From assembly GCF_003724155.1 (NCBI RefSeq), contig NZ_RJJQ01000015.1:62001-126000 (forward strand): a stretch of DNA of 64,000 bases. The letters run 5' to 3'. A program made the position numbers and the translations under genes. Under the pieces are notes generated by a model. The model was not told the DNA's origin. It made no database searches and was given only the letters and a program-made list of their open reading frames with translations. The DNA comes from Flexivirga caeni. Its GTDB lineage: Bacteria > Actinomycetota > Actinomycetes > Actinomycetales > Dermatophilaceae. Positions 43,420 to 64,000 of the stretch are shown in pieces (within the stretch, counting starts at the first letter, position 1; every line of letters begins with the position of its first letter).

Positions 43420-45797
<2,378 letters not shown>

Positions 45798-45801
<4 letters not shown>

Positions 45802-46427
45802 GCTGTGCTTCCCTTCATCTGAACGGTACGGAACCGCTGCGCTTGCCACCGCGGCGTTGAGATCGGCCGCGCGCAGCGTTGTCGGGTAAATTTCTCCGAG
45901 TCCACGAGGCCGGTTTGTTCGAGGCGGACACGGATGGCTTGCTGGCTAACGCCGAAGTAGGTCGCAAGCTGGTCGATGCGTTGCGTGATGTTGCAGAAGA
46001 CGCGCTTCAGTTCTGGCTTCGGCATGAGGGTGCAGGCGGCGAAGTAGTCGGCGGCGCGTTCGGCTTCCCACTCGCTGGCGTACAGCCGGTGGTGGGCACC
46101 GTGGTCGATGATGTGTTTGAACTCGTGCAGCAGCGTGAAGCGCTGTCTGGCTGTGCCGTCAGACTCATTCAGCGCGATGATCCATTCCCGGCCGTTCCAG
46201 TAGCTCAGCCCGCTGGTGGGCAGCGGTTCTCGGACGATGCGCAGCCGCGGCAGTGCTGCCAGGTGGTGCTCGTGAATGCCGTCGTGCTGGGAGCCGAGGA
46301 GTTCGAGCAGGCGCGTCGCCTGACGCTCGGCCACCGCCTTGGTGTCGTCGAAGTCGAGACGGCACTGCGGGATAAGTGCACGGAGGCTCGTCAGCGTGGA
46401 TGGTTGATGTGATGATGTGTGGTTCAT
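45798..46427 (-). CDS. immA: ImmA/IrrE-type metallopeptidase
   Basis: A 209-residue zinc peptidase with the motif LLHEFKHIIDHG (HExxH) and the downstream acidic ligand in WEAERAADYFAACTLMP. ImmA enzymes of integrative elements cleave the XRE-type repressor and so release excision and transfer genes. The repressor gene lies 31 bases upstream and the integrase gene directly downstream, the layout known from ICEBs1-like control modules. The C-terminal part carries a further helical segment near residues 150-170. Confidence 0.9.
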
Positions 46428-46458: not shown

Positions 46459-46836
46459 TTATTGCTCGTCTTCGCCGGGACGAGGACCCGCGTGATTTGG
46501 ATCGATACCGTATTTCTCGGTGATCGCCGTGATCTGTTTCAATGCTGCTTCCGGTAGCTCGGGATATTTGCGGCGGAAGTAGGGCTGAAGAGTTGGCAGC
46601 GCCCCAGCGATGTCGTATCCGGCGGCGGCACACGCTTCTGTTGCGTCGATACCGAGCACCGCAGCAAGCCTAAGAAGGTTGCCAAGCTCAGGCGAGTCGA
46701 CTTCGTCGCGCTCCCAGGCAGCAAGTTGCGTCTTACCCATCCCGGCTTCCGCGGCAGCTTGACGCAGGCTCAACCCAGACCGCTCCCGCGCTCTTCGGAG
46801 AAGTTGTCCAATTGTTTCGTTATGAATTTCGTTCAT
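46459..46836 (-). CDS. immR: XRE-family repressor (ImmR-like)
   Basis: A 125-residue protein with an N-terminal helix-turn-helix (about residues 9-60: GLSLRQAAAEAGMGKTQLAA then WERDEVDSP). The C-terminal part (about 65-125) is a helical region likely recognised by ImmA. It probably represses itself and the transfer operon through GTCCG-N6-CGGAC sites, one of which begins 21 bases upstream of its ATG. A TAAAAT -10-like element lies at 46843-46848 on the minus strand. Confidence 0.9.
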   Translation of the reverse strand: MNEIHNETIGQLLRRARERSGLSLRQAAAEAGMGKTQLAAWERDEVDSPELGNLLRLAAVLGIDATEACAAAGYDIAGALPTLQPYFRRKYPELPEAALKQITAITEKYGIDPNHAGPRPGEDEQ

Positions 46837-47434: not shown

Positions 47435-48052
47435 CTATGGGTCGGCTTCCCGGTCCGGTCCGCGAAACAGATGCACCCCGCCCATGCGCGCCGGAAGCGC
47501 CAAGAGTCCGGAGACAGCGACTTCGTGCGCAGCCGCACCGAGGTAGTCGACGGTGACCCACTCCCGAACGTGCTCCGGGATCCGCGCCTCGCTCCAGCCG
47601 GTGGCCTCGATGAGATTCCGGCCGAGTTCACGGTAGTTCGGGAAGGTGCCGATGTAGTGCTCGCCGAAGAGGTCGAGCATCTCCGAGTCGCCGTCGTGCA
47701 GCTGCGCCCAGGCGGCGAAGGCCGGGCCGTGCTCTTGGATGGCGCGGGCGACCCTGGAGATAACTCCAGGATTTTCGCCTGGCTCGAGGACGAAGGGGCC
47801 GAACCCAATGGTGTCGTAGATGGCGCGGCCGTCAAGGGCTGCTTCGATGTCGCTCGGGTCGAGGGTGGCGTCGATCCACTGGCCAGTCATGGCTGTCGAG
47901 TCTTCGGCGGCCCAGATACCGGGTCGGGATGGAAAGTGCTCGGGGTCGAAGCCGACGGCCGGTTCGTCGTCGCGGCGCTCCGGTTGCTCTGCTTGCTCGT
48001 GGGGTTCGTTCTCGTGCTGGTTTCCGCTGTGGCGCGGGGTGTATTCGCTCAT
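47435..48052 (-). CDS. ardA: ArdA-like antirestriction protein
   Basis: A 205-residue acidic protein with an N-terminal extension of about 45 residues. The ArdA-type core has GIWAAEDSTAMTGQWIDATL, YDTIGFGPFVLEPGE, HGPAFAAWAQ and the conserved DLFGEHYIGTFPNYRELGR, then VDYLGAAAHEVAVSG near the end. ArdA proteins mimic DNA and block type I restriction enzymes when the element enters a new host. The start overlaps the MT-A70 methylase stop (ATGA). Confidence 0.85.
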   Translation of the reverse strand: MSEYTPRHSGNQHENEPHEQAEQPERRDDEPAVGFDPEHFPSRPGIWAAEDSTAMTGQWIDATLDPSDIEAALDGRAIYDTIGFGPFVLEPGENPGVISRVARAIQEHGPAFAAWAQLHDGDSEMLDLFGEHYIGTFPNYRELGRNLIEATGWSEARIPEHVREWVTVDYLGAAAHEVAVSGLLALPARMGGVHLFRGPDREADP

Positions 48053-48648
48053 AGTGCTCCTCCTTTCGTTGTCTCGGAGATGTCTGCGCTGTCGCTTGGC
48101 TCATTCGGTACGGGATAGCCAGAGATGTGGATATCGCTGTGGATTTCGTTGCCCCAGACATGCCAGCGCGCTTGTCCCGGTGTCCACGGTGGTCGCCTGC
48201 GGGCGAACAGCTCGAGGTACGGGCCGGGAGAGATGCGCTCGATGAGGGCGTACTGCTCCTCCGGCTTATGCGAGTGGTCTTGGACTGGTGCCTGGATCCA
48301 GGTCGGCTGGGAGCGGTACTGGACCGGCGCCTTACCCCTGGTGGCGAAGAGCAGATGCTCTGTGCTGTTCCGTAGGTAGTTGCCGAGGCCGAGGCGGAAC
48401 TTGACCCAGGTGAGCGGTGAGCGGACTGTGAAGCCCCAGGCTTCGGCGACGTCGTAGCCGTGACGGAGCGTGGCGTTGGTGACCCAGAGCCACAGGTGGG
48501 CATCGTCGGCAGCCAGATCGGCGACCGGCATGGCCTTGATCCGTTCCAGGCTCATGAGCTTGTAGTGCCCGACCGCGCCGCGGTGCCCCTTCTGCTCGAT
48601 GTCCCACGGTGGGTCGGCCAGGATGGTGCGATATTTCGGCGCGTTCAT
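48049..48648 (-). CDS. MT-A70 family adenine methyltransferase
   Basis: A 199-residue N6-adenine methyltransferase. The catalytic motif DPPW is in ILADPPWDIEQKG (about residues 11-15), and the SAM-binding and later motifs appear as HLWLWVTNATLRHG and YLELFARRR. On mobile elements such enzymes methylate the element's DNA and so protect it from restriction, complementing ArdA. It is coupled by short overlaps to both neighbours. Confidence 0.92.
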   Translation of the reverse strand: MNAPKYRTILADPPWDIEQKGHRGAVGHYKLMSLERIKAMPVADLAADDAHLWLWVTNATLRHGYDVAEAWGFTVRSPLTWVKFRLGLGNYLRNSTEHLLFATRGKAPVQYRSQPTWIQAPVQDHSHKPEEQYALIERISPGPYLELFARRRPPWTPGQARWHVWGNEIHSDIHISGYPVPNEPSDSADISETTKGGAL

Positions 48649-49652
48649 ACCGCGCCTCCACTGGTGAGCATCTGCTCGACCGAATCAGCAGGGGCGTACC
48701 GGAACAGCTCGGGGGTGAGCCGACCGGCACGGAGGATGCGGCGACGGAGCTCGGTAGCCCGAGCAGCAGCTCGGATGCCATGGAAGACCCACAGCACCAA
48801 CGGGAATGTGCCACTGTCTGCTTGTTCGCGACCGGAGCGGTAATAGGCCTCGTACTGCTCGCATTTGCGCACCAGCGTCGGCAGGGACTCGGTCCCGCAG
48901 TCGATCTCCATGAACCAGCGGTCTTCGTAGGCTCCGTCGGCGTCCTCACCCGCCAGGCGCAGCGCCAGATCCGGAGTCAGCCGCAGCGCCGCGCCGCCGA
49001 GCCCGGTGTAGGTGCGGCTGGCGCGCTGTTCGATCTGGACCTGCAAAGCAGCCCGCATGTCGGCAGCAGCCTGGATGGAGGCCAGGTGTGCGTCGGCGAT
49101 CGCCAGCTCGTGAACCAGGAAACGGGTCGTCGGCGCCTCGGCCCGATAGCGCCAGGATGGCTCGGCACTCGGTCTGGCGGTTTCGGTCGCCAGCCGGTGG
49201 CCGGCGCTGGTTAGTTGCCAGATCTGGACGCCGGAGCCCGCTTCGATGCCACCGACCCGGCGGGGCGTCACGTTTTGGAGTACACCGGCTCGCTTCAGGC
49301 GCAGTAGGGTGCGTCGGGCTTCACGGGCGGCCGAGTCGAGCCGCAGCTGGTTACTGGCTGGGAAGCAGAAGCGCTGTACCTGGTGGGTGCTAAGGAAACG
49401 GTGCATGCCAAGGACGGCCAAGATGGCGCGGTCGCGGTCAGCGAGATCGGCGCGCAGCCGAGCCCGGGCCACGGTGCCCACGACGCGGCGGCGGGCTGGG
49501 TTCTTCGCCCCTTTACGGGGCGAAGTATTCGCGGGCGAGGAAGCGGCCTGTGTGGCCGTGACGTCGGCAGATGCAGCAAAGCCACCAGGGGCGGCCGGAC
49601 GGACGAACGGACTGGCCTGGTCACTGTTGGAACTGCTGTTTTCACTACTCAT
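48645..49652 (-). CDS. Replication-relaxation family protein
   Basis: A 335-residue protein with a disordered N-terminus (about 50 residues). A winged-helix region follows (RDRAILAVLGMHRFLSTHQV, then REARRTLLRLKRAGVLQ), then a nuclease-like/restriction-type domain with RLTPDLALRL and WFMEIDCGTESLPTLVRKCEQ (acidic residues in ExD-type positions). This matches the Replic_Relax family found beside TraG-like coupling ATPases in actinobacterial elements, with a probable role at the transfer origin. No classical MOB relaxase is present, so this protein may substitute. Confidence 0.85.
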   Translation of the reverse strand: MSSENSSSNSDQASPFVRPAAPGGFAASADVTATQAASSPANTSPRKGAKNPARRRVVGTVARARLRADLADRDRAILAVLGMHRFLSTHQVQRFCFPASNQLRLDSAAREARRTLLRLKRAGVLQNVTPRRVGGIEAGSGVQIWQLTSAGHRLATETARPSAEPSWRYRAEAPTTRFLVHELAIADAHLASIQAAADMRAALQVQIEQRASRTYTGLGGAALRLTPDLALRLAGEDADGAYEDRWFMEIDCGTESLPTLVRKCEQYEAYYRSGREQADSGTFPLVLWVFHGIRAAARATELRRRILRAGRLTPELFRYAPADSVEQMLTSGGAV

Positions 49653-51880
49653 GACTCGTCCTCCTTCCTCGTTTCGTTTGCTGCTACTTCGTTACTCGTG
49701 CTGGCTGTCGAGCGCCGGGAGTTCCGTGAGCGGCCGATCCGCTCTGGCCCTTTGTCGCTGCGGCTGGTCATCGATCTGCTGCCTGCCAGGCGCGCCAGCG
49801 CGACTTCGGTGTCGCCGGTCGGCTGCCCGAATGTCGCTTCCGATCGGCGTTGTAACTCGGCTGGGTCGCGCAGCGGCTCCGCTAATCCCAAAGTGGTCAG
49901 GGAGACCCACGGCGTCGTTGAGCCGTCGACCAGCAGCCGGGCGTACGCCTGGTGTTTCGGCAGCGTCTCGAAGTCGTGCTTGTCGAGGACGCCGTCGCCG
50001 AAGAGGTTCGCTGTCGTGCTGGCATCGTCGCCAGTCAGGCGGAAGGTGATCTTCGTACCGGTGTTGGCGTCGACGCCAGCCACGAGCCCACCGAGCTGCT
50101 TGCGGTACTGGTGCGCCATGGTGACGCTCATGCCGAGCGATCTGGCCTGCGCCAGCGCGTCGTCGAGTGAGCCGGGCAAGCGCAGGTAGTCCTGGGTCTC
50201 GTCGATGACCATGCCGACTTGCTTCCGCAGCGCGGCTGGCACCTGCAACCGGGTGAGTGCCGCACGCCACGCGTCGGCCACGATGAGCGCGCCGAGCAAT
50301 GAGGCGGCTTCCTGCCCGATGCGGTCTTTACCAAGCCGGACGAGCAGGATTTTGGCTTCGGTGAATACCTGCTCAATGCGGAAGGTGGGTTCGAGTTGCC
50401 CGACGATGCCGCGTAACGAGGGTCGCAGCAGCACGGTGCGCAACTTGTTCATGAGCGGCCGGATGACGACCGTGCGAGCCTCGTCGCTCAGTGCCTCGTA
50501 CTCGGCCCAAAAGGCGCCGAGTCCGAGCGGGTCGTCCGGTCCGACGGCAGCGATGACCTTGCGTCGTAGTCCGGGGTTGGTCAGCAGCAGCGGGATCAGC
50601 GCCAGCGAGGCCTCCCCACCTTTGAGGTGGTAGCGCGCCAGGCTGAGCGCGGCCGAATGCAACAGGTCGCTCGACCGCGGGCCGAGTCCGCTACCGAACA
50701 ACGAGCTGAACACGGTGACGATCTGGTCGGCCACCAGGTCGGCCTCAGCCGGGGCGGTAACGCTGCCAAGGCTGTTGAACCCAACTGGTTGCGCCGACGA
50801 CGAGTCGAGCACCACGACGTCGCCCAGGCGGTGCTCCGGAATCCGAGCCAGTAGGTCGCTCACCAGCTCGGACTTCGGGTCGATGACGATCTGGCCGAGT
50901 CCAGCGTCGATCTCTTGCAGGATTTGCTGGGCCAGCAGTGTCGACTTGCCGACGCCGGTCGGGCCGAGTACGTGCCGGTGCTGCAACCCATCCCTCACCG
51001 GCTGATGGATCTCCCGCTCTCGGCCGCGCTCATGAGCGTGGGTCGCCAGGCCGTAGTAGATGCCGCCCGTCATGGGATGCGCACTGTTCGCAGGCAGCAG
51101 ACGCGGATGCCGCGGTCGCAGGCCAGGCAACGCGGTGTCGGGCTTATCCGCCACCGGCAGGCCGAGCGGCACCAGGTCGGCCACGCTCAAGCTGAGCGGC
51201 CAGAGGAACGGTGACGACACTGCTGTCACCGACTTCGGGCTGCAGCCGACGAGGCGCACCGCTTGGCCGGGTGCTTCCAGGCCGCGGAGCGCAGCCCCGA
51301 CCTGCCCGATGAGGTGCCCAGCACGTTCCTTACTGCCCGAGATGGCCAGTACCCGGATGCAACAGCCGAAGCCATGTTGGCCGAGCTTGGCTGCCTCATC
51401 CGCCGGTGCTTTGTGACCATTCGCCGTCGATAGCCTCCGCGGCCAGGTGCGGACACCAAGCACCAGCTGAAACCGCAGCGCTTCCTTCGTGCCGGCCTGC
51501 GCCAGTGTGGCCAGCAGGCTGCGCGTGACGGCCAGTTGCTCGGTGCCCGAGCCGGCACGCAGCGGCCGAGCCCGATGCGACGCAATCCGCAAGGTCGCGG
51601 CCAGCTTGACCTGGTCGCCCTCGACCGGCATCACCGGCTGCGACAAAGAGACAAGCACCTCCGGCACATGTGTGCGGAGGACGTGCAGCGCTTTGCGCAG
51701 CGCCACATCGTCGTCGGCACCGAGCCGCCAGCTGACCGCGCCGTCGGTACCGGTAACTTCCAGCACCAGACGTGGTTGCCGAGCCAGCGCCGCCAGGCCG
51801 AGAAAGACGGCCCGGGCGGTGTCGGGCGACAGCGCCTCCGCGAACTCCAAATCGCGCCAGATCAGCGAGGACTTACGCAT
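49649..51880 (-). CDS. TraG/VirD4-like conjugative coupling ATPase
   Basis: A 743-residue P-loop ATPase. The N-terminal 340 residues are a divergent region with no obvious membrane helix. The ATPase domain starts with LGPTGVGKSTLLAQ (Walker A, about residue 350) and continues with IVIDPKSELV, SSDLLHSAALSLARYHL and GMVIDETQDYLRLPG (Walker B). A TraM-recognition-like segment and a Ser/Arg-rich tail follow. Coupling proteins carry DNA to the transfer pore. ATG 51880 overlaps the upstream stop by 8 bases; the longer frame to 52165 lacks coding sense. Confidence 0.88.
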   Translation of the reverse strand: MRKSSLIWRDLEFAEALSPDTARAVFLGLAALARQPRLVLEVTGTDGAVSWRLGADDDVALRKALHVLRTHVPEVLVSLSQPVMPVEGDQVKLAATLRIASHRARPLRAGSGTEQLAVTRSLLATLAQAGTKEALRFQLVLGVRTWPRRLSTANGHKAPADEAAKLGQHGFGCCIRVLAISGSKERAGHLIGQVGAALRGLEAPGQAVRLVGCSPKSVTAVSSPFLWPLSLSVADLVPLGLPVADKPDTALPGLRPRHPRLLPANSAHPMTGGIYYGLATHAHERGREREIHQPVRDGLQHRHVLGPTGVGKSTLLAQQILQEIDAGLGQIVIDPKSELVSDLLARIPEHRLGDVVVLDSSSAQPVGFNSLGSVTAPAEADLVADQIVTVFSSLFGSGLGPRSSDLLHSAALSLARYHLKGGEASLALIPLLLTNPGLRRKVIAAVGPDDPLGLGAFWAEYEALSDEARTVVIRPLMNKLRTVLLRPSLRGIVGQLEPTFRIEQVFTEAKILLVRLGKDRIGQEAASLLGALIVADAWRAALTRLQVPAALRKQVGMVIDETQDYLRLPGSLDDALAQARSLGMSVTMAHQYRKQLGGLVAGVDANTGTKITFRLTGDDASTTANLFGDGVLDKHDFETLPKHQAYARLLVDGSTTPWVSLTTLGLAEPLRDPAELQRRSEATFGQPTGDTEVALARLAGSRSMTSRSDKGPERIGRSRNSRRSTASTSNEVAANETRKEDES

Positions 51881-52154
51881 ACGGCACCTCATCCGTGGCT
51901 CCGTCTGGCGGCTGATCGTTCTCATCGTTCGCCTCAGCGGCGGCTTGGGCTTCCGCCTCGGCTTGCGCCATAGCCATAGCGATAACGGCGCGGGCGATCT
52001 TCTGAACGTCCGGCTTGTCGCGCAGCTCGCCCCGAACACTGAGACGACGTTCCCGGCCGCGACGCGAGCGGGCAGTCGACCGCCCCTGTGAGTCCCGACG
52101 ACTCTTCGGCGTCTGCGGACGCCTGTCGTTTGATTGCTTCCTGTTTTTAGGCAT
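51873..52154 (-). CDS. Small basic protein at head of transfer operon
   Basis: A 93-residue protein with a strongly basic, hydrophilic first half (RRPQTPKSRRDSQGR) and an Ala/Glu-rich helical second half (ARAVIAMAMAQAEAEAQAA). It is the first gene after the operator-promoter at 52201-52259, with ribosome site AAAGGAGGG ahead of the ATG. Function is unknown; DNA or partner binding is plausible. Confidence 0.75.
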   Translation of the reverse strand: MPKNRKQSNDRRPQTPKSRRDSQGRSTARSRRGRERRLSVRGELRDKPDVQKIARAVIAMAMAQAEAEAQAAAEANDENDQPPDGATDEVPYA

Positions 52155-52200
52155 GACGAATACACCCTCCTTTCGAGTTAGTTAGCAGTGGATTGCAGGC

Positions 52201-57028: not shown

Positions 57029-57487
57029 TTACAAAAGCTTGGTGATGTCGGCCACCGCCTGATCTGTGGGTACATGCTCCCAGATTCGAAGTACGGTCCA
57101 CCCATCGCTAGTGAGTGCTGTCACCTGGTCTTCATCTCTCTCAATGTTGCGCCTCAGTTTCGGCCCCCAGTACGCGGTGTTCCTTCGCGGTGAGCCACCA
57201 TGCTCCGGGCAGCCATGCCAGAAGCAGCCATCAACAAAGACGGCCACGCGCTGCTTGGTGAACACGATGTCGGGCCGCGCTCGGACGCCGCTCTCCGTCC
57301 GGATCAGCAGATCTTTGCGAAACCGATACCCAGCGCGGTGGAGTGCTGACCGCAGCGCCAACTCAGGCTTGGTACCGGTGCGACGGATGGCGCGCATGTT
57401 ACGACGGCGACCCTCGGAGGTAGGGTCAATCCCGTGCGCTGGGCGTGCCGCATCCACATCCCGTGGGTGCTCCCCTGTATCGTCCAC
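57029..57487 (-). CDS. vsr: Very short patch repair endonuclease
   Basis: A protein of about 152 residues (GTG 57487; the frame is open to 57568). The Vsr signature is present: NMRAIRRTGTKPELALRSAL, RPDIVFTKQRVAVFVDGCFW (active Asp and Phe region), HGCPEHG and WEHVP. Vsr nicks T-G mismatches that arise from deaminated 5-methylcytosine, and typically accompanies a C5 methylase. It diverges from the C5-methylase gene across a region with two GTTCGAACA repeats. Confidence 0.93.
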   Translation of the reverse strand: MDDTGEHPRDVDAARPAHGIDPTSEGRRRNMRAIRRTGTKPELALRSALHRAGYRFRKDLLIRTESGVRARPDIVFTKQRVAVFVDGCFWHGCPEHGGSPRRNTAYWGPKLRRNIERDEDQVTALTSDGWTVLRIWEHVPTDQAVADITKLL

Positions 57488-57521
57488 AGCGTGGCCATGT
57501 CCTCTCGCCGTCCCGACACGC

Positions 57522-57556
57522 GTTCGAACATGATCACTCTGACAAGTGTTCGAACA
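57522..57556. promoter_or_regulatory. Repeated TGTTCGAACA between vsr and methylase
   Basis: GTTCGAACA at 57522-57530 and the perfect palindrome TGTTCGAACA at 57547-57556 are 25 bases apart in the divergent region. They could bind a regulator, or the methylase itself, to balance restriction and methylation. Confidence 0.5.
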
Positions 57557-57595
57557 AGTGGTGCTCATGACGAGTCACCAGAGTCGGAGGTCAGT

Positions 57596-58591
57596 ATGCC
57601 TGAGATGACGTGCCTGGAGATCTGTGCGGGGGCCGGTGGACAATCGATTGGGCTGGAAGCAGCCAACTTTCGCCACCTCGCTGCGCTGGAGATCGATCCA
57701 GATGCCTGCGAGACCCTCCGCCTGAACCGACCAGACTGGAAGGTACTCGAGGAGGACGTCCACGACCTCGACGGCACCGAGTTCGAAGGCGTGACGCTGC
57801 TCGCAGGCGGCGTGCCATGCCCGCCGTTCTCGATCGCCGGCAAGCAGCTCGGCTCCGACGACGAACGCGATCTGTTCCCGCAGGCGCTCCGCCTCGCCGA
57901 AGAGTGCCAGCCTGAAGCCGTCATGCTCGAGAACGTTCGCGGGCTTGCCTCGGCGAAGTTCGATGACTACCGGCAGCAGATCCTCGATCGGCTCGCTGAG
58001 CTGGGTTACGAAGCTGATTGGAAGCTCCTGAACGCCAGCGACTTCGGCGTGCCGCAGCTCCGTCCGCGCTTCATCCTGGTCGCACTGCGTCCGGAAGCGT
58101 TCGCTCACTTCGTCTGGCCGACGAAGAAGAATGAGCCGCCTACCGTCGGGCAGAAGCTCGGGAAGCTCATGGCAGCGAACGGCTGGAAGGGCGCCAAGGC
58201 GTGGGCGAAGCGTGCCAACGGCATCGGGCCGACACTCGTCGGCGGATCACGCAAGCACGGTGGTCCCGACCTCGGACCAACGCGCGCACGCGAAGGCTGG
58301 CTCCGGCTCGGTGTCGACGGCAAGGGTCTGGCTGACGCTGCGCCGTCAGCCGACATCCCTGAGACCTGCACGCCGCGGCTGACGGTGCAGATGGCTGCAA
58401 TCGTCCAGGGCTTTCCACCGGAGTGGAAGTTCTCCGGGCGTAAGACCGCTAGCTATCGGCAGGTGGGAAACGCCTTTCCACCTCCGGTCGCCGAGGCCGT
58501 CGGAGGTGCGATCAGAGAAGCGATCGTCGCAGCACGCGCCGCGGCTGATGCCGAGACGCCGGTGCGGTCAGTCCTCGAGAGTGCTGGCTGA
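57596..58591 (+). CDS. C5-cytosine DNA methyltransferase (NaeI-like)
   Basis: A 331-residue m5C methylase. Motif I is LEICAGAGGQS, motif IV with the catalytic Cys is GGVPCPPFSIAGKQ (about residue 77), motif VI is MLENVRG, motif VIII is PQLRPRFILV, and motifs IX-X end in YRQVGNAFPPPVAEAVG. ATG 57596 is the best start. Next to a NaeI-type endonuclease gene it probably protects GCCGGC sites, though the target-recognition region has not been compared. Confidence 0.92.
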   Translation: MPEMTCLEICAGAGGQSIGLEAANFRHLAALEIDPDACETLRLNRPDWKVLEEDVHDLDGTEFEGVTLLAGGVPCPPFSIAGKQLGSDDERDLFPQALRLAEECQPEAVMLENVRGLASAKFDDYRQQILDRLAELGYEADWKLLNASDFGVPQLRPRFILVALRPEAFAHFVWPTKKNEPPTVGQKLGKLMAANGWKGAKAWAKRANGIGPTLVGGSRKHGGPDLGPTRAREGWLRLGVDGKGLADAAPSADIPETCTPRLTVQMAAIVQGFPPEWKFSGRKTASYRQVGNAFPPPVAEAVGGAIREAIVAARAAADAETPVRSVLESAG

Positions 58592-59401
58592 CCGAGCCCG
58601 GCGGCGCCGTGCTTCTTCGGCCCGGATCGCTGTAGGAATGTTCTCCGGCAGTTCCGTCACGACCGTTGCTCGATAATATGCCCGCACTCGAGCGCCCTCG
58701 TTGTAGCGATTCTGGTGTTCGATCTTCCAGCCGAAGAAGCGGAGGTCGCGCAGACGACGCTGCCAGTCTTCCTGATACTCCTTGGCACTTGCCACGATGC
58801 CGATGAGGTCGCCGCGCACCCATTCGCCCTTGAACGCGGCCAACAACGCACCGATCCGCCGCTGCGGTTCGTCATAGCTGATCGCCTTACGAATCTCTTC
58901 GGCATGCGCTTCGAAGCTATGGAAGTAGTCGCGCTTGCCGGCATTGCAGTCTTCGCAGAGCGGCTGGAGGTTGTCGACGTCGTTCGAGCCGCCCCATGAT
59001 TGCGGGATGCGGTGGTCGACCACCAAAGTCACGTGGTGCTCGAGAGGTGTCTTGCCGCACATGGCGCAGCGCTGCGGCGCCAGCACCTCGGCACGCCGAC
59101 GCAGGCTAATCGGGGCGCCATCCGCAGCAGGATGCTTGGCCCAACCGCGCAGGATGTAACGATGCTCGCCGTCAATGCGCTCGGCCGCAACATCAAAGTA
59201 GCGACGAAGCTCGCGGACTCGGCGGTCGGTCTGCGACTGATCTTCACCAAGTGCCTGCGCCGCAAAGAGGCGCAACTCCACCATGGTCGGCGGATTACTC
59301 CGTCGGCGATAGAGCAACCCATACAGCAGGCGTTGTGAGGTCGAGCCGACGAGTGCGGCCAGCTCTTCGCTGTCAGGTTCGGGTAACGGACGAGACTCCA
59401 C
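58568..59401 (-). CDS. HNH endonuclease of the R-M locus
   Basis: A protein of about 277 residues (GTG 59401; ATG 59494 is possible but overlaps the NaeI gene). A central HNH domain has two Cys pairs (CAMCGKT, CEDC) around LVVDHRIPQSWGGSNDVDNL and CNAGKRDY. An N-terminal winged-helix-like part (RRVRELRRYFDVAAERI) may contact DNA. It lies between the methylase and the NaeI-like endonuclease, so it belongs to the same defence island. It may be a second nuclease or a modification-dependent enzyme. Confidence 0.85.
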   Translation of the reverse strand: MESRPLPEPDSEELAALVGSTSQRLLYGLLYRRRSNPPTMVELRLFAAQALGEDQSQTDRRVRELRRYFDVAAERIDGEHRYILRGWAKHPAADGAPISLRRRAEVLAPQRCAMCGKTPLEHHVTLVVDHRIPQSWGGSNDVDNLQPLCEDCNAGKRDYFHSFEAHAEEIRKAISYDEPQRRIGALLAAFKGEWVRGDLIGIVASAKEYQEDWQRRLRDLRFFGWKIEHQNRYNEGARVRAYYRATVVTELPENIPTAIRAEEARRRRARSASTLED

Positions 59402-59426
59402 AAGCTCGGACGCTAGCCGGCAGCCA

Positions 59427-60356
59427 CTACGAGATCGGCTTCTGACGCCTGGTATCTGGCAGCAGAGGTGCTGGCACTGTGATGGGCTCGTCATCGCGGG
59501 CTAGGCGCCAGTACTTGCCATCAAGCTCGACAACATTGGAGTCTCCCGGGTCAGCCGGAACGATCCGGAGACTGACAACCTCGCCTGGCGCTGGCACTGC
59601 CGCCCCAAGGCTACGGGCGAGTTCACGATGCACTTCGTAGTCGCCCCCTGGAATCACGTATCCCTCGACCGCGAGCGCGCTACGAGAACCTCCATTACTA
59701 CGGACACGCTTCATGTAATCGTCTTGCTGAGCAACCGTGGCGATGGTGTTGCGACCAATTCTGCGGTTGGTTGCCAGTCGCAGAAGCTCGTTGAGGCGCG
59801 CCTGGCCACTCCGTGGTGCGAAGATCCGGTCGATGGTGTCCCGCGGCAGCGCCAGCAGGACGTTCGGCGGAAGCGCTGCATCGCGCGCCAGCCACCGGAT
59901 TGCCTGGCGACCAGCAGGGTTCAGTTGCGTTTTGTTGTCGCGGTTCCGGCTGCTCCGCAGGTGATCCTCAGAGGCACGCACCATGCCAAGACTCCAGGTG
60001 CCTGCCGCGTCGTCGGCCGTGCCGACGAGCAGCAGTTCGCCGAACGCTTCAGGCGGAATCATCCAGCCGCCGTCCTTCTGCGAGTACTTGCAGTCGATGT
60101 CGAAGCCGACGATCCGGTAGTCGAGCAGGACGCCATCGTCGATGACGTCTCTGAACTCCCGGCGCAGGTTGATCTCCAGCAGCGTGCCGAAGTGCGTCTT
60201 CTCCGTCTTGTATAGCTGATCCCAGCGATACCGGCCGGTGTGCTGGCCGTCGTAGAGCTGGTCGAACGTCTCGCGCACCACGGCGGCAGCGCGATCGTTG
60301 GTGGGATCCGCTTGTCGCCAGCGAGCGAGGACGTGCTGCAACGCGGTATCTGGCAT
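59427..60356 (-). CDS. NaeI-type type II restriction endonuclease
   Basis: A protein of about 309 residues (ATG 60356; GTG 60377 and ATG 60440 are alternatives). The nuclease part has LLEINLRREF, LLDYRIVGFDIDCKYSQKDG (Glu, Asp, and the DxK core). The second, DNA-binding CAP-like domain includes NRRIGRNTIATVAQQDDYMK and RSNGGSRSALAVEGYVI. NaeI needs two GCCGGC sites and cuts one (type IIE). The LYDG in FDQLYDGQHTGRY keeps Leu where a Lys mutation turns NaeI into a topoisomerase, so a normal endonuclease is expected. Confidence 0.9.
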   Translation of the reverse strand: MPDTALQHVLARWRQADPTNDRAAAVVRETFDQLYDGQHTGRYRWDQLYKTEKTHFGTLLEINLRREFRDVIDDGVLLDYRIVGFDIDCKYSQKDGGWMIPPEAFGELLLVGTADDAAGTWSLGMVRASEDHLRSSRNRDNKTQLNPAGRQAIRWLARDAALPPNVLLALPRDTIDRIFAPRSGQARLNELLRLATNRRIGRNTIATVAQQDDYMKRVRSNGGSRSALAVEGYVIPGGDYEVHRELARSLGAAVPAPGEVVSLRIVPADPGDSNVVELDGKYWRLARDDEPITVPAPLLPDTRRQKPIS

Positions 60357-60548
60357 CTGATGGCTGTTGTCGGACACGGGAATGAAGGGTATCCGCTCGC
60401 TGTTCCTCAGCATCATCAGATGCAGGCCTGATACATCCACCAGACGGATGCGTCCGTCGGTCGTCGCTACACAACACGAAGAGGGCGTCGCAGCGACACA
60501 CCTCCGCCGCGGTTTCGAAAGCTACATCCTGATATGCAAGAGTGGCTT

Positions 60549-61574
60549 ATGGTTGCTCATCGGATCCCCTTGCCAGCCGACGCCTACGTCCCAATTCTGA
60601 AGGGCAAGCGCGCAGAACTCGACGCGGTCTCTGGGACTCCAGCAGACAAACTCGTACCTCTCCTGGAATTCCTCGATCCGGCAAGTGTGGCGGCGCAGCT
60701 CACACGAGCGTGGAAGCATCCGGACGACGTCGTGTGGATACAGGCCCTCAACGCTGATGGGGCCGACGACGCGGCGTTTGCAACAGCACTGACCGACATG
60801 TTCAACTCGTTGCGCTCTGACTTTCGGGCCGTTCCCGTCTTGACCAGCACCGAAGAACCCGCCACGTTGGCGGCTTTTTCTCGGATCGCTGCGACGGACA
60901 GTCGAGGCGTAGTCCTTCGCATCGATGTCGAAGAGCTAATCGACGAGAGCATTGATAGCACCGCGGACATCACAGCCACACTCTCCGCGGTAGGTATGCC
61001 CGAGTCTGAAGTGGATCTGGTACTGGACGCTGGTCTACTGACCGGCTCAGCGACGATACAGTCAGCCGTCGCTCTCCAGGCAATCAACGAGCTACCACAT
61101 ACGAACTGGCGAACAATCGTAGTAGCGTTCTCAGCGTTTCCGGAGGCTATTGGCAACGTTGTCCCAAAGAACACCGTCGTAGCTATCCCGCGTATCGACG
61201 CAGCAGCATTTACCGCTGTTCGACGGGCGGCAAAGCTTCCATTGGTCTACGGCGACTACGCGATCGGAGTACCAACCTACAGCGACGTCGCCTTCACGCC
61301 GATCCCAAACATACGGTACGCCTCCGACGCAGAGTGGTATATCCATCGGGGCCGCGAGCGTGCCAATCCTTCCCCGCAGTATCGGGCGCTGGCACGTGCC
61401 CTTGTGGCTGCACCTTACTACTCAGGCGCTGCTTTCAGCCCGGGTGATCAGCAGATCAACGACGTTGCGACAGAAACCTCCGGGCCAGGAAACGCGACGA
61501 CACACCTGCGCGCGGGCATGTCCCGTCACCTTCACCTGGTTCTTTCGCGACTCGCCAGCCTTGGCGTTCCGTGA
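60549..61574 (+). CDS. Beta-family protein (PF14350-like)
   Basis: A protein of about 341 residues (ATG 60549; ATG 60534 in frame). It begins with AYVPILKGKRAELDAVSG, the hallmark of the beta protein family named after a T4 protein, and has VLRIDVEELIDE and the C-terminal region SDAEWYIHRGRE. The family's function is unknown, but members are often beside sce7726-family genes in defence islands. Its last 119 bases overlap the 3' end of the sce7726-like gene on the other strand. Confidence 0.82.
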   Translation: MVAHRIPLPADAYVPILKGKRAELDAVSGTPADKLVPLLEFLDPASVAAQLTRAWKHPDDVVWIQALNADGADDAAFATALTDMFNSLRSDFRAVPVLTSTEEPATLAAFSRIAATDSRGVVLRIDVEELIDESIDSTADITATLSAVGMPESEVDLVLDAGLLTGSATIQSAVALQAINELPHTNWRTIVVAFSAFPEAIGNVVPKNTVVAIPRIDAAAFTAVRRAAKLPLVYGDYAIGVPTYSDVAFTPIPNIRYASDAEWYIHRGRERANPSPQYRALARALVAAPYYSGAAFSPGDQQINDVATETSGPGNATTHLRAGMSRHLHLVLSRLASLGVP

Positions 61575-62109
61575 GAGCGGTCGTTACGATCGACCTCAAC
61601 TGATCTCGCTCAGTAACATCAGCTAGGTGTTTCGCAAGCTCGTTTCGCGTGAGGCCACGATAGCCGCCTGCTTGTCCGAGAGCGTCGAGAGCATGCAAAA
61701 GCTCGTCCCGCCATAAAAGAAGGGCCAGCGCAACAGTGTCAACAGAACGTCGCTGGTTTGCTTGTCGCACTTGTTGATAGGAGAGCCCATCATCGGGCGT
61801 CCGATCAACAACAGCCAGACCCCATCCGCGCTTCAGAATTTGTCGCGCCTTGGACAAGTGTCGCGTCGTCACTACCAATACGCAGAAATCGAATACGTCA
61901 CCAAATACGTCCATCTGGCGAGGTAGCCTCGTGAGCGTGTCTCGATCGCTCTTCAATTCATAGCCAACGAGGTGGTCACCGATTACCGCAATATCAATGC
62001 GCCCACGCTCACCAATGACGAACTCATCGACAACGAGCCTCGAAGCGTCGTCACAAGCAACTGTGTCATGGACAACCGACCGGATCTCATCCTCGGTCAC
62101 CGCGATCAT
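61456..62109 (-). CDS. sce7726-family protein
   Basis: A protein of about 217 residues (ATG 62109; ATG 62154 is in frame). The N-terminus has RLVVDEFVIGERGRIDIAVI and ELKSDRDTLTRLPRQMDVFG, which looks like a PD-(D/E)xK nuclease core (D, then ExK), followed by FCVLVVTTRHLSKA. A C-terminal region with NELAKHL may be a winged helix. The family is a known neighbour of beta-type proteins; both are suspected anti-phage or modification-dependent factors. Confidence 0.8.
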   Translation of the reverse strand: MIAVTEDEIRSVVHDTVACDDASRLVVDEFVIGERGRIDIAVIGDHLVGYELKSDRDTLTRLPRQMDVFGDVFDFCVLVVTTRHLSKARQILKRGWGLAVVDRTPDDGLSYQQVRQANQRRSVDTVALALLLWRDELLHALDALGQAGGYRGLTRNELAKHLADVTERDQLRSIVTTALTERQGWRVAKEPGEGDGTCPRAGVSSRFLARRFLSQRR

Positions 62110-62179
62110 GAGGATGATGCTAGTCGGAGAGCACTCGGCGCGATGCATTGACATCCTGTGGTCGTCGCTGCGGCAGCGC

Positions 62180-62443
62180 TCACCGATACCGCACTCCCCA
62201 CGGCCGGACCTCGATCCCGCGCTGGCGCAGAATTCGCAGCACGGTCGACTTGGCGAAGCCAAGCTCTTCCGCCACGGTCCGAGCATCCTCGCCCGACGTG
62301 TAGCGGCGAACGATCTCATCCTTGTCTGCCTCACGTAGGCGACGTCGGCCACGAGTGTCCGCGACCGGACGCGGAAGAGGTGCCCTGACCGGCGTCGATG
62401 CCAAATCCTCGCGGTTGATGTTCAGACCAGAGAGGGCGACCAT
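62180..62443 (-). CDS. Small HTH protein, copy 1
   Basis: An 87-residue protein. The C-terminal 45 residues (EADKDEIVRRYTSGEDARTV then AEELGFAKSTVLRILRQRGI) match the Hin/resolvase-type helix-turn-helix. There is no recombinase domain. The N-terminus is Pro/Arg-rich. It is nearly identical to copy 2 at 63452. The start codon lies at a Fur/Zur-like palindrome. Confidence 0.75.
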   Translation of the reverse strand: MVALSGLNINREDLASTPVRAPLPRPVADTRGRRRLREADKDEIVRRYTSGEDARTVAEELGFAKSTVLRILRQRGIEVRPWGVRYR

Positions 62444-62457
62444 AATGATTATCATTA
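62443..62457. promoter_or_regulatory. Fur/Zur-like palindrome, copy 1
   Basis: TAATGATTATCATTA is a perfect 15-base palindrome (7-1-7) like the core of Fur-family operators. In such GC-rich DNA it stands out. It overlaps the start codon of the small HTH gene and is repeated in copy 2 (63715-63729). A metal-regulated role would fit the zinc-dependent VanX-like enzyme, but is only inferred. Confidence 0.6.
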
Positions 62458-62462
62458 CCATA

Positions 62463-62490
62463 AATCGCCTCTGTAACGGAGGCGATTTTG
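62463..62490 (+). terminator. Intrinsic terminator in block, copy 1
   Basis: AATCGCCTC and GAGGCGATT form a 9-bp stem with loop TGTAACG, followed by TTTTGTG. It could end plus-strand transcription from the left, or attenuate a transcript begun at the palindrome. It is conserved in copy 2. Confidence 0.75.
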
Positions 62491-62645
62491 TGTCCGATCA
62501 GTACTGATTCCGCGCACTCGTGCGTCAGTGGTGTGACTCCATCACCTCTGTAAGCGTCGGTTCAAACCCGTTCACTTGGGTTCATCGGTACATAGTTTTC
62601 CCGAGTCTGCTTCTTGAGGTCGGATGTACCGATGAAGTGAAATAC
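62490..62645. other. Structured non-coding segment, copy 1
   Basis: No gene is visible. Conserved hairpins include CGCAC/GTGCG (62513-62524), GGTGtGA/TCACC and AACCC/GGGTT, plus the inverted arms TTCATCGGTACAT (62581-62593) and ATGTACCGATGAA (62624-62636) with 30 bases between. Copy 2 keeps the arms while the loop varies. It lies between the HTH gene and the vanX-like gene and could be an RNA leader, an operator or a recombination site. Confidence 0.6.
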
Positions 62646-62665
62646 ACCACCTGCTCCAATGCATA

Positions 62666-62696
62666 TACCATGTATGAGTCCGTTTCATACGTGGTA
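62666..62696. promoter_or_regulatory. Inverted repeat before vanX-like gene
   Basis: TACCAtGTATGA and TCATACgTGGTA form a dyad with a 7-base centre, 11 bases before the ATG. Absent from copy 2. A probable operator for the dipeptidase gene. Confidence 0.55.
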
Positions 62697-62706
62697 CAGT
62701 AATAAT

Positions 62707-63420
62707 ATGGATATTGCCGATAGAATTGAGCGATCTAAAAGCACAGAGCGTATTGATTACACGAAAATCGGCTTTGATGGGCGCGGCGACCCACTCGTGA
62801 AAGTAGAGTCGTCTGACAAGATTATGGTTAGTCCGGTATGGATGCTAGAAGATGATTTTGAAGGCAGCATGTACGCCGATTACATTGCAGAACATCCGGC
62901 GTACGACGACATCTATGTACGGTCTCAATTGTTGCAAAGAATCGAGCGGGCTGCGGAGTCGCTCGATGACAAATATAAGCTCGTTGTGAGAGCTGGCCAC
63001 AGACCGTTAGCGATTCAGCGTCGCCTGCTACGAGAATGCGCGCAAGATTACAAGGATGATCATCCAGACGCTACCGACCAGGAAGCGCTCAAACACGCGC
63101 GTACCTTCGTGAGTGATCCGGACATCTCGCAACCACCGCATTGCTGCGGTGCGGCGATCGATGTCGAACTGTTTGACATCGACAGCAACAAGCTGGTTGA
63201 TTTCGGCAGCGCTATGAATGTTGATGACGAGATTTCATACTTGCATTATGACCAAATTAGCCCTGAGCAAAAGGCTAATAGGATGCTGCTTCTCTCAACG
63301 ATGTTGGAGCAGAAGCTCGCAAGTGTTGCATTCGAATGGTGGCACTTTTCCTATGGCGATCAGACTTGGGCGTGGTTCTATGGAGAACCTTGTAGCTTTT
63401 ACAGTCCGGTCGATATCTAG
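62707..63420 (+). CDS. VanX-like D-Ala-D-Ala dipeptidase
   Basis: A 237-residue M15D-type zinc dipeptidase. The catalytic Arg is in VVRAGHRPLAIQ; zinc ligands are His and Asp in PPHCCGAAIDVELFD and the Glu/His pair in FEWWHFSYGDQTWAW. VanX removes D-Ala-D-Ala and so supports glycopeptide resistance when vanH and vanA are present; neither is in the window. No signal peptide. The gene is much poorer in GC than its surroundings and is flanked by direct repeats, so it is recent cargo. ATG 62707 lacks a Shine-Dalgarno sequence. Confidence 0.88.
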   Translation: MDIADRIERSKSTERIDYTKIGFDGRGDPLVKVESSDKIMVSPVWMLEDDFEGSMYADYIAEHPAYDDIYVRSQLLQRIERAAESLDDKYKLVVRAGHRPLAIQRRLLRECAQDYKDDHPDATDQEALKHARTFVSDPDISQPPHCCGAAIDVELFDIDSNKLVDFGSAMNVDDEISYLHYDQISPEQKANRMLLLSTMLEQKLASVAFEWWHFSYGDQTWAWFYGEPCSFYSPVDI

Positions 63421-63451
63421 CGAGGTCACACAAGCACGAGAAGACTATGGC

Positions 63452-63715
63452 CTAGCGATAGCGCACTCCCCACGGTCGGACCTCGACGCCACGTTGGCGC
63501 AGGATCCGCAGAACCGTGGACTTCGCGAAGCCGAGCTCTTCAGCCACGGTCCGAGCATCCTCGCCCGACGTGTAGCGGTGCACGATCTCATCCTTGTCCG
63601 CCTCACGCAGGCGACGCCGGCCACGGGTGTCCGCGACCGGACGCGGAAGTGGCGCTCTGACCGGCGTCGATGCCAAATCCTCGGGGTTGATGTTCAGACC
63701 AGAGAGGGCGACCAT
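63452..63715 (-). CDS. Small HTH protein, copy 2
   Basis: An 87-residue protein that differs from copy 1 at only a few positions (for example NPED for NRED, VHRY for VRRY, RGVEV for RGIEV). Most base changes between copies are silent, which suggests both genes are under selection for protein function. Confidence 0.75.
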   Translation of the reverse strand: MVALSGLNINPEDLASTPVRAPLPRPVADTRGRRRLREADKDEIVHRYTSGEDARTVAEELGFAKSTVLRILRQRGVEVRPWGVRYR

Positions 63716-63729
63716 AATGATTATCATTA
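63715..63729. promoter_or_regulatory. Fur/Zur-like palindrome, copy 2
   Basis: Same 15-base palindrome as at 62443-62457, at the start codon of the second HTH gene. Confidence 0.6.
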
Positions 63730-63912
63730 CCATAAATCGCCTCTGTAACGGAGGCGATTTTGTGTCCGATCGGTACATGATTCCGCGCACTCGTGCGTCA
63801 GTGGTGTGATGCCATCACCTCTGTAAGCGTCGGTTCAAACCCATTCACTTGGTTTCATCGGTACATGGTTTTCCACAGGCGGCTTCTTGAGGTGGGATGT
63901 ACCGATGACATG

Positions 63913-64000
63913 ACATCCTGCTTATGGTTATACAATCAAATTATGTATTGTCAATTGGCTTGTGACGCTCTATATTGATAGCAGAGACACGTTTAAAAGG
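63913..64000. other. AT-rich right edge without a visible gene
   Basis: After the second block the sequence turns AT-rich (TTATACAATCAAATTATGTATTG), as upstream of the vanX-like gene, but no long frame begins before the window ends. Another cargo gene may start just beyond. Confidence 0.5.

Follow-up and report, generated by a model that had tools for sequence, protein, structure and literature searches.

A repeated HTH unit in Flexivirga caeni as the probable detached 3' end of a large serine integrase gene

Repeated block and its genomic setting

The window, by which we mean the whole 64,000-nucleotide stretch of the Flexivirga caeni contig that was analysed, holds, as the original prediction had it, two direct copies of a block (62180-62640 and 63452-63912); they are 92% identical over ~461 bp, and a third copy, of 355 bp and 87% identity, lies 2.2 kb rightward on the same contig, beyond the window. 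In all three copies the minus strand carries an HTH frame, which in copy 1 matches Pfam HTH_7 (resolvase HTH; E 5e-7) and which we call the tail for reasons developed below; the tail protein of copy 1 shares 97% identity with that of copy 2 and 92% with that of copy 3. Codon differences between the HTH copies had been read as mostly silent, and pN/pS ratios of 0.05 (copies 1 and 2), 0.13 (copies 1 and 3) and 0.12 (copies 2 and 3), with 30-40% of synonymous sites changed, bear this out: judged by codon comparison, the tail frames are under purifying selection. The predicted 15-bp palindrome at the HTH start, TAATGATTATCATTA, is likewise present by letter check in copies 1 and 2 (62443-62457 and 63715-63729), and a strong hairpin (62462-62488; z -5.7) follows it in copy 1. 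Inverted arms that are kept while their loop changes were recovered in copies 1 and 2, and two copies hold no covariation; the arms are missing from copy 3. The covariation check proposed for the hairpins was equally unproductive, as those of the three copies are identical, RNAalifold on eight poorly aligned integrase-coded hairpins returned four pairs, one double change and no usable consensus, and an Rfam search of 61400-64000 gave no match.

Table 1. Features of the window, with their positions, strand and the basis of each assignment
Feature	Position	Strand	Basis
tRNA-Pro (CGG), putative integration site	43942..44018	+	ARAGORN; alignment with relatives' tRNA-Pro loci
Putative attR core CGACCA, the tRNA-Pro 3' end	44013-44018	+	Letter check
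Large serine integrase, catalytic part	44019..45849	-	tblastn, Pfam domains
Hairpin inside integrase C-terminal codons	44033..44063	+	z -5.43
ImmA/IrrE-like protein, beside integrase	45798..46427	-	PF06114 E 1e-17
Xre-type HTH regulator	46459..46836	-	PF01381 E 6e-12
ArdA-like antirestriction protein	47435..48052	-	PF07275 E 5e-9
MT-A70 methyltransferase	48049..48648	-	PF05063 E 5e-27
Replication-relaxation protein	48645..49652	-	PF13814 E 5e-35
Possible coupling/transfer ATPase (weak)	49649..52165	-	PF10412/PF02534 E 0.003, below cut-off
Cargo: restriction-modification set (Vsr, C-5 methylase, HNH, NaeI-type endonuclease)	57029..60440	.	
Cargo: beta family protein (PD-Lambda-2_C-like)	60534..61574	+	PF14350 E 1e-55; PADLOC E 8e-37
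Cargo: sce7726 family protein	61570..62109	-	NF033832 E 5e-35
Putative detached integrase tail 1 (HTH), copy 1	62180..62436	-	Pfam, joins, codon comparison
Putative attL core CGACCA (tail strand: TGGTCG), same as tRNA-Pro 3' end	62437..62442	.	Joins, letter check
Presumed tRNA-Pro trailer with 15-bp palindrome and terminator hairpin	62443..62488	+	Alignment, fold, letter check
Inverted arms, 12-13 bp, variable loop	62581-62593 / 62624-62636	.	Copies 1 and 2 only
Cargo of unit 2: M15 (VanX-like) peptidase	62707..63420	+	PF01427 E 2e-15
Putative detached integrase tail 2 (HTH), copy 2	63452..63708	-	DNA search, codon comparison, alignment
Putative second att core, trailer and terminator block	63709..63760	.	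Alignment, letter check

The tail of copy 1 occupies one end of an 18.4-kb stretch whose opposite end is held, on the same strand, by the catalytic part of a large serine integrase (Table 1). This protein has the domain order of large serine recombinases, with Resolvase (PF00239, E 2e-32) followed by Recombinase (PF07508, E 2e-12) and a zinc ribbon (PF13408, E 4e-9), and its ORF continues into antisense tRNA-Pro. At 45753-43945 it gives a tblastn match of 54% identity over 616 aligned positions to the joined product of genome G1075 (see below), and it shares 74% DNA identity with the copy that lies at the tRNA-Pro of Leekyejoonella antrihumi. The word TGGTCG is common to both ends of the stretch, and reading across it joins NVNTL of the integrase to VALSGLNIN and the HTH of the tail in a single frame of 729 codons, stop to stop. 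The rest of the same gene, at 43942-45849, lies outside the block coordinates of the original prediction; the HTH, then taken for an independent, recombinase-free gene, is better read as a serine integrase C-terminus. We take tRNA-Pro (44.0 kb) and copy 1 (62.44 kb) as the limits of the window element, with a defence island as its load; for transfer genes, the Replic_Relax match is strong and that to a coupling protein falls below the cut-off.

Long DNA matches to the block were found in 2 of the 98 relatives searched, namely the window's own genome and L. antrihumi, and a further four of the six genomes with DNA matches share 27-50 bases only. By protein or profile search, counting the window's own genome where drawn, the tail was found in 2/396 genomes of the order (E <= 1e-8), 4/394 of the class (1e-6) and 25/341 of another family, f45 (1e-7; many weak), which may be Nocardioidaceae; a motif search for the tail N-terminus in one genus found it in 3/49 genomes. 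The tail keeps varied company. In the window its neighbours are the beta and sce7726 genes, the M15 peptidase and a three-gene unknown set, in Leekyejoonella a PD-T4-2/NsnA-like gene and a HEPN gene, in G797 a type I restriction enzyme and a Ppl-like ATPase, and in G1075 an MzaB-like ATPase, and the orientation of tail to cargo is variable. Recurrence elsewhere with differing neighbours excludes the outcome of a block found only here or always beside the same neighbour, and agrees with the predicted unit that carries changing cargo to the extent of marking a mobile unit; the notion that it controls that cargo found no support. Between copies 2 and 3, the cargo (L012:5975-7684) comprises three frames; one, of 103 aa, matches Cas2 very weakly (E 0.04), and the other two match no family. 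To the right of copy 3 lie a disrupted-looking serine resolvase frame (PF00239; L012:8064-8648) and, towards the contig end, a kinase-like gene pair (label by eye; L012:8660-9954).

Empty site, contiguous junction and in-frame joins

In G1075, a 24.6-kb island stands between a leuA-like gene (labelled by eye) and tRNA-Arg(TCT), and its relative G922 has tRNA-Arg(TCT) immediately after the same leuA-like gene (91% identical in DNA over 2.5 kb). The G1075 HTH starts where identity to G922 ends, at the end of the leuA-like gene, and at the other side of the island a large serine integrase abuts tRNA-Arg, its ORF passing into antisense tRNA. Joined across the shared core, the two parts give one open frame of 688 residues, in which the Resolvase-bearing part ends in DMNTLV and is followed by LLAQVKVNP and the HTH. 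Set against G922, G1075 thus shows a precise insertion whose site is empty in the relative, which extends to the window only by analogy; the host itself showed no empty tRNA-Pro site, G1075/G922 supplying the one empty site. Before that site revealed a tRNA and a serine integrase, the hairpin with its VxLAxxNxNT start had been considered as the end of an unknown transposon, as a leaderless promoter and as an attC-like site, all of which were then dropped; a CCTCTGT motif near some copies was set aside, a 7-base word being too common.

G883 offers a natural case in which the integrase C-terminus runs on into the HTH within one frame (L067 9351-9701 against residues 567-686, 42% identity), as expected where one element integrates beside another. 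The same contig bears at L067:6183, ~3.3 kb from the full tail, a solo hairpin and att with ~14 tail codons and without the HTH, which looks like a truncated older tail.

When integrases and tails were joined by script, one frame was restored in 7/10 genomes tried: the window genome (G000), Leekyejoonella, G1075, G870, G797, G844 and G945. These joins share ancestry and are not independent trials, and their cores were set by hand (G000, Leekyejoonella, G1075, G870 and G797, as well as the 4-bp core of G945) or taken from a list of shared words. In Leekyejoonella the integrase lies at its own tRNA-Pro and the tail on a different contig. G844 has a 43% identical integrase at tRNA-Ile and an in-frame join over an 11-bp core, for which two other short words would likewise have given in-frame joins. 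The integrase of G756 is frameshifted, and G860 was left undecided. A join in G1037 is in frame by eye and stands outside the seven; this genome also has two double-HTH tails (L075, ~8.3 and 12.1 kb), 3.8 kb apart and on the strand of one integrase ~31 kb away, which make up a further tail array. In G975, a relative of G945, the tail-flanking gene is present with neither a tRNA nor a hairpin beside it, and for that reason the G945 flank does not confirm the model.

With the joined G1075 product as query, tblastn also recovered integrases in G870, G797 and G756, which, like that of the window, share the strand of the tail and have their 3' ends 18-25 kb away from it; weaker matches (32-34%) were obtained in L074 and L101. 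All five integrases (G1075, window, G870, G797, G756) end in a tRNA 3' end, and the integration targets comprise tRNA-Pro, -Arg, -Met and -Ile, the last three within another family. Across f45, with three candidates scored per genome, 22 integrase places were found in 17/341 genomes at E <= 1e-90. Five of these are close relatives; in four of them the match stops between residues 600 and 630 of 688, the point at which the tail is cut, and the match to the frameshifted G756 integrase ends at residue 395; the other 17 end by residue 517 from lost similarity and are uninformative on the tail. Eighteen of the 22 places have, on the opposite strand, a tRNA or tmRNA at most ~0.5 kb past the 3' end of the match, and L207 is a nineteenth, at 0.66 kb beyond a partial match; none was found past the match in L197, L198 and L208, the first and last of which are at contig ends. 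The wider serine integrase set in L196-L212, 40-52% identical and lying beside antisense tRNA-Ala, -Ser, -Arg, -Ile or tmRNA, has tails such as VELRGFEPLTSSM, and many of its members may share the split design.

Strong tails (E <= 1e-19) occur in 10 f45 genomes, only 5 of which carry a close integrase passing E <= 1e-90; at that threshold none was found in G464, G931, G1098, G865 and G883. A tRNA-Met stands ~14 kb from the tail of G464 in the same arrangement, with no integrase match there. The tails of G464 (L022) and G865 (L073) are near long RHS/YD-repeat-like genes (labelled by eye), where no integrase was found, and in G1098 (L071) an excisionase-like frame and tyrosine integrase pieces were seen by eye 300-1850 bp past the orphan tail, on the host side.

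Origin of the tails and competing explanations

We consider it very probable that a large serine integrase gene loses its 3' end when the element integrates, and that the repeated HTH unit is this detached end. Support at the sequence level comes from the domain make-up and topology, the shared cores and in-frame joins, the one empty site and the one contiguous junction. Under this model, attP would lie inside int, its core being deduced from attL, attR and one empty site, with the C-terminal resolvase-type HTH domain encoded just downstream. Recombination with a tRNA gene at its 3' end would then place the catalytic part of int next to the tRNA, where it now ends in antisense tRNA codons, and the HTH tail at the far end of the element, adjoining the displaced tRNA terminator; copies 2 and 3 would be tails of further related elements accreted with cargo at the same site, their integrase gone. 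We infer, further, that the element forms a circle, that the full-length protein is the integrating enzyme, and that loss of the tail alters integrase activity. No intact full-length int gene, circular form or read pair was seen. Searches of phages and plasmids with the window tail and the window integrase, and of plasmids with the G756 tail, gave no relevant match, nor did phage and plasmid searches with the G797a tail, where one weak match reached 42% coverage; viral contigs likewise gave none of relevance.

The hairpins fit the same model. One stands beside each tail, on the host side of the core, and at the 13 other tRNA-Pro loci that have an exact 26-base match to the tRNA 3' part, a hairpin follows the tRNA within ~70 bases by eye in every case, with very different hairpins between genomes. 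What had been proposed as cassette-specific structured DNA is most likely the displaced terminator of the tRNA used as integration site. In all six attR sequences the integrase has a hairpin of its own in its last codons before the core, five of which, folded on the tRNA strand, have z of -4.7 to -6.5; such integrase-coded hairpins, including that at 44033-44063, perhaps replace the terminator that the tRNA has lost.

How copies 2 and 3 arose is a separate matter. Across the three copy pairs, tail-side identity is 232/259, 224/260 and 220/259 bases, against 61/62, 61/62 and 62/62 in the 62 bases past the core (Fisher p 0.02, 0.004 and 0.0002). The contrast is not sharp at the core, as the final 23 tail bases are also identical between copies 1 and 2, and further out these two copies diverge (92/101) and copy 3 is unrelated. 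Such a pattern is suggestive of tails from different related elements at one site. The trailer block recurs before each cargo, however, which simple serial integration does not explain, and tail sites may have exchanged through the integrase, or islands at this tRNA may have undergone unequal homologous exchange. If copies 2 and 3 were true att-flanked cassettes, each of trailer block, cargo and tail, and moved in integron-like fashion by the resident integrase, then the direct repeats, the same core, the constant order of cargo, tail, core and terminator, and a similar two-copy array in G797 would all be accommodated. We nevertheless consider this rather unlikely, given that no excised cassette was seen, that islands sharing a tRNA could yield an identical picture by unequal homologous exchange, and that one G797 tail (G797b), which is without a start-like codon, may be decayed.

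Selection on the separated tails could alternatively mean that a tail acts independently. In one rival reading the HTH would be a small independent regulator that accompanies defence cargo and has the palindrome at its start codon as its binding site; a small frame adjoining defence genes, purifying selection, and the position of the palindrome in the window genome can all be cited for it. Yet the conserved first position is no start codon in G945, G797b and G1098, orientation to cargo is variable, and the hairpin probably leaves scant promoter space before the frame. The palindrome is probably not the tail's operator, because it lies on the tRNA-trailer side of the core and is absent from five other attL sequences. 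Continuation of the G883 frame into an integrase C-terminus, together with the in-frame joins elsewhere, weakens the case strongly, and we regard an independent regulator as highly improbable. Simple local tandem duplication of one block would account for three direct-order copies within 4 kb and for their near-identical ~62-base trailer block, but has hardly any chance of being correct given old, selected tail divergence (many synonymous and few amino-acid changes), a different cargo for each copy and the occurrence of the unit in other genera.

A detached integrase tail would explain a class of orphan HTH genes in such genomes, and odd recombinase C-termini derived from antisense tRNA (e.g., GTGFEPVTSGL). 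Orphan tails could serve as markers of defence-island ends and of serial integration at one tRNA, and the split genes as natural truncations for testing how the direction of serine integrases is set. More tentatively, and with the balance somewhat against it, these may be self-switching serine integrases in bacteria, in which integration is the work of the full-length, HTH-tailed enzyme, the integrated form, having lost the tail, cannot excise, and an incoming full-length enzyme, or int rejoined to a new tail, mobilises or exchanges residents. If so, defence cassettes marked by tails would be built up into tRNA-anchored arrays, copies 1-3 among them, with no conventional directionality factor.

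Relation to known systems

Among known integrating elements, SSV1 integrates at tRNA genes. In the SSV-type 'suicidal' integrases, attP lies in the integrase gene and integration splits that gene in two, according to the relevant part of a 2021 review (PMC8371274), which places self-disrupting integrases in archaea only, describes them as tyrosine type, and reports that the resident can be acted on by another element's complete integrase (SSV1, pTN3, pT26-2). An attachment site within the integrase gene, split by integration, is likewise what the sequences indicate here, none of the 10 genomes contradicting it. In contrast to these archaeal tyrosine recombinases, whose catalytic domain is in the C-terminal piece (same part of PMC8371274), the window integrase is bacterial, has serine recombinase domains instead of the tyrosine recombinase fold, retains its catalytic domains and appears to lose only the C-terminal HTH. 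We therefore regard it as working like the SSV type without being a member.

Large serine integrases of the phiC31, Bxb1 and A118 type share the Resolvase, Recombinase and zinc-ribbon domains, and differ in that here the C-terminal HTH tail would be encoded beyond attP and the target is a tRNA 3' end. To our knowledge, a C-terminal HTH tail beyond attP is no feature of phiC31, Bxb1 or A118. The pertinent section of a 2011 survey of actinobacterial elements (PMC3218068) treats tRNA genes as rare targets of serine recombinases, and the integrative conjugative and mobilisable elements covered there resemble the window element in having an integrase at a tRNA gene and variable cargo. The replication-relaxation protein is a further likeness to such elements, whereas the split integrase and the weakly identified transfer genes set the window element apart. 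Integron cassette arrays have attC sites and a tyrosine IntI; in the window the resident integrase is a serine recombinase and the repeated core is a tRNA 3' end.

The attP-bearing gene of mycobacteriophage BPs is its repressor, not its integrase. As far as the relevant passages on BPs (PMC4557955) and XacF1 (PMC5666396) go, both have attP in a coding region, with integration changing or splitting the product, and the interrupted XacF1 gene is a possible phage regulator, not an integrase. No title among the matches listed from the open-licence literature, which is weak evidence, concerned a serine integrase of bacteria whose own gene contains attP, and the accessible part of an integrase-prospecting study (PMC12884075) has none. 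A bacterial serine-type version of the split design would mean that it arose twice, in unrelated enzymes.
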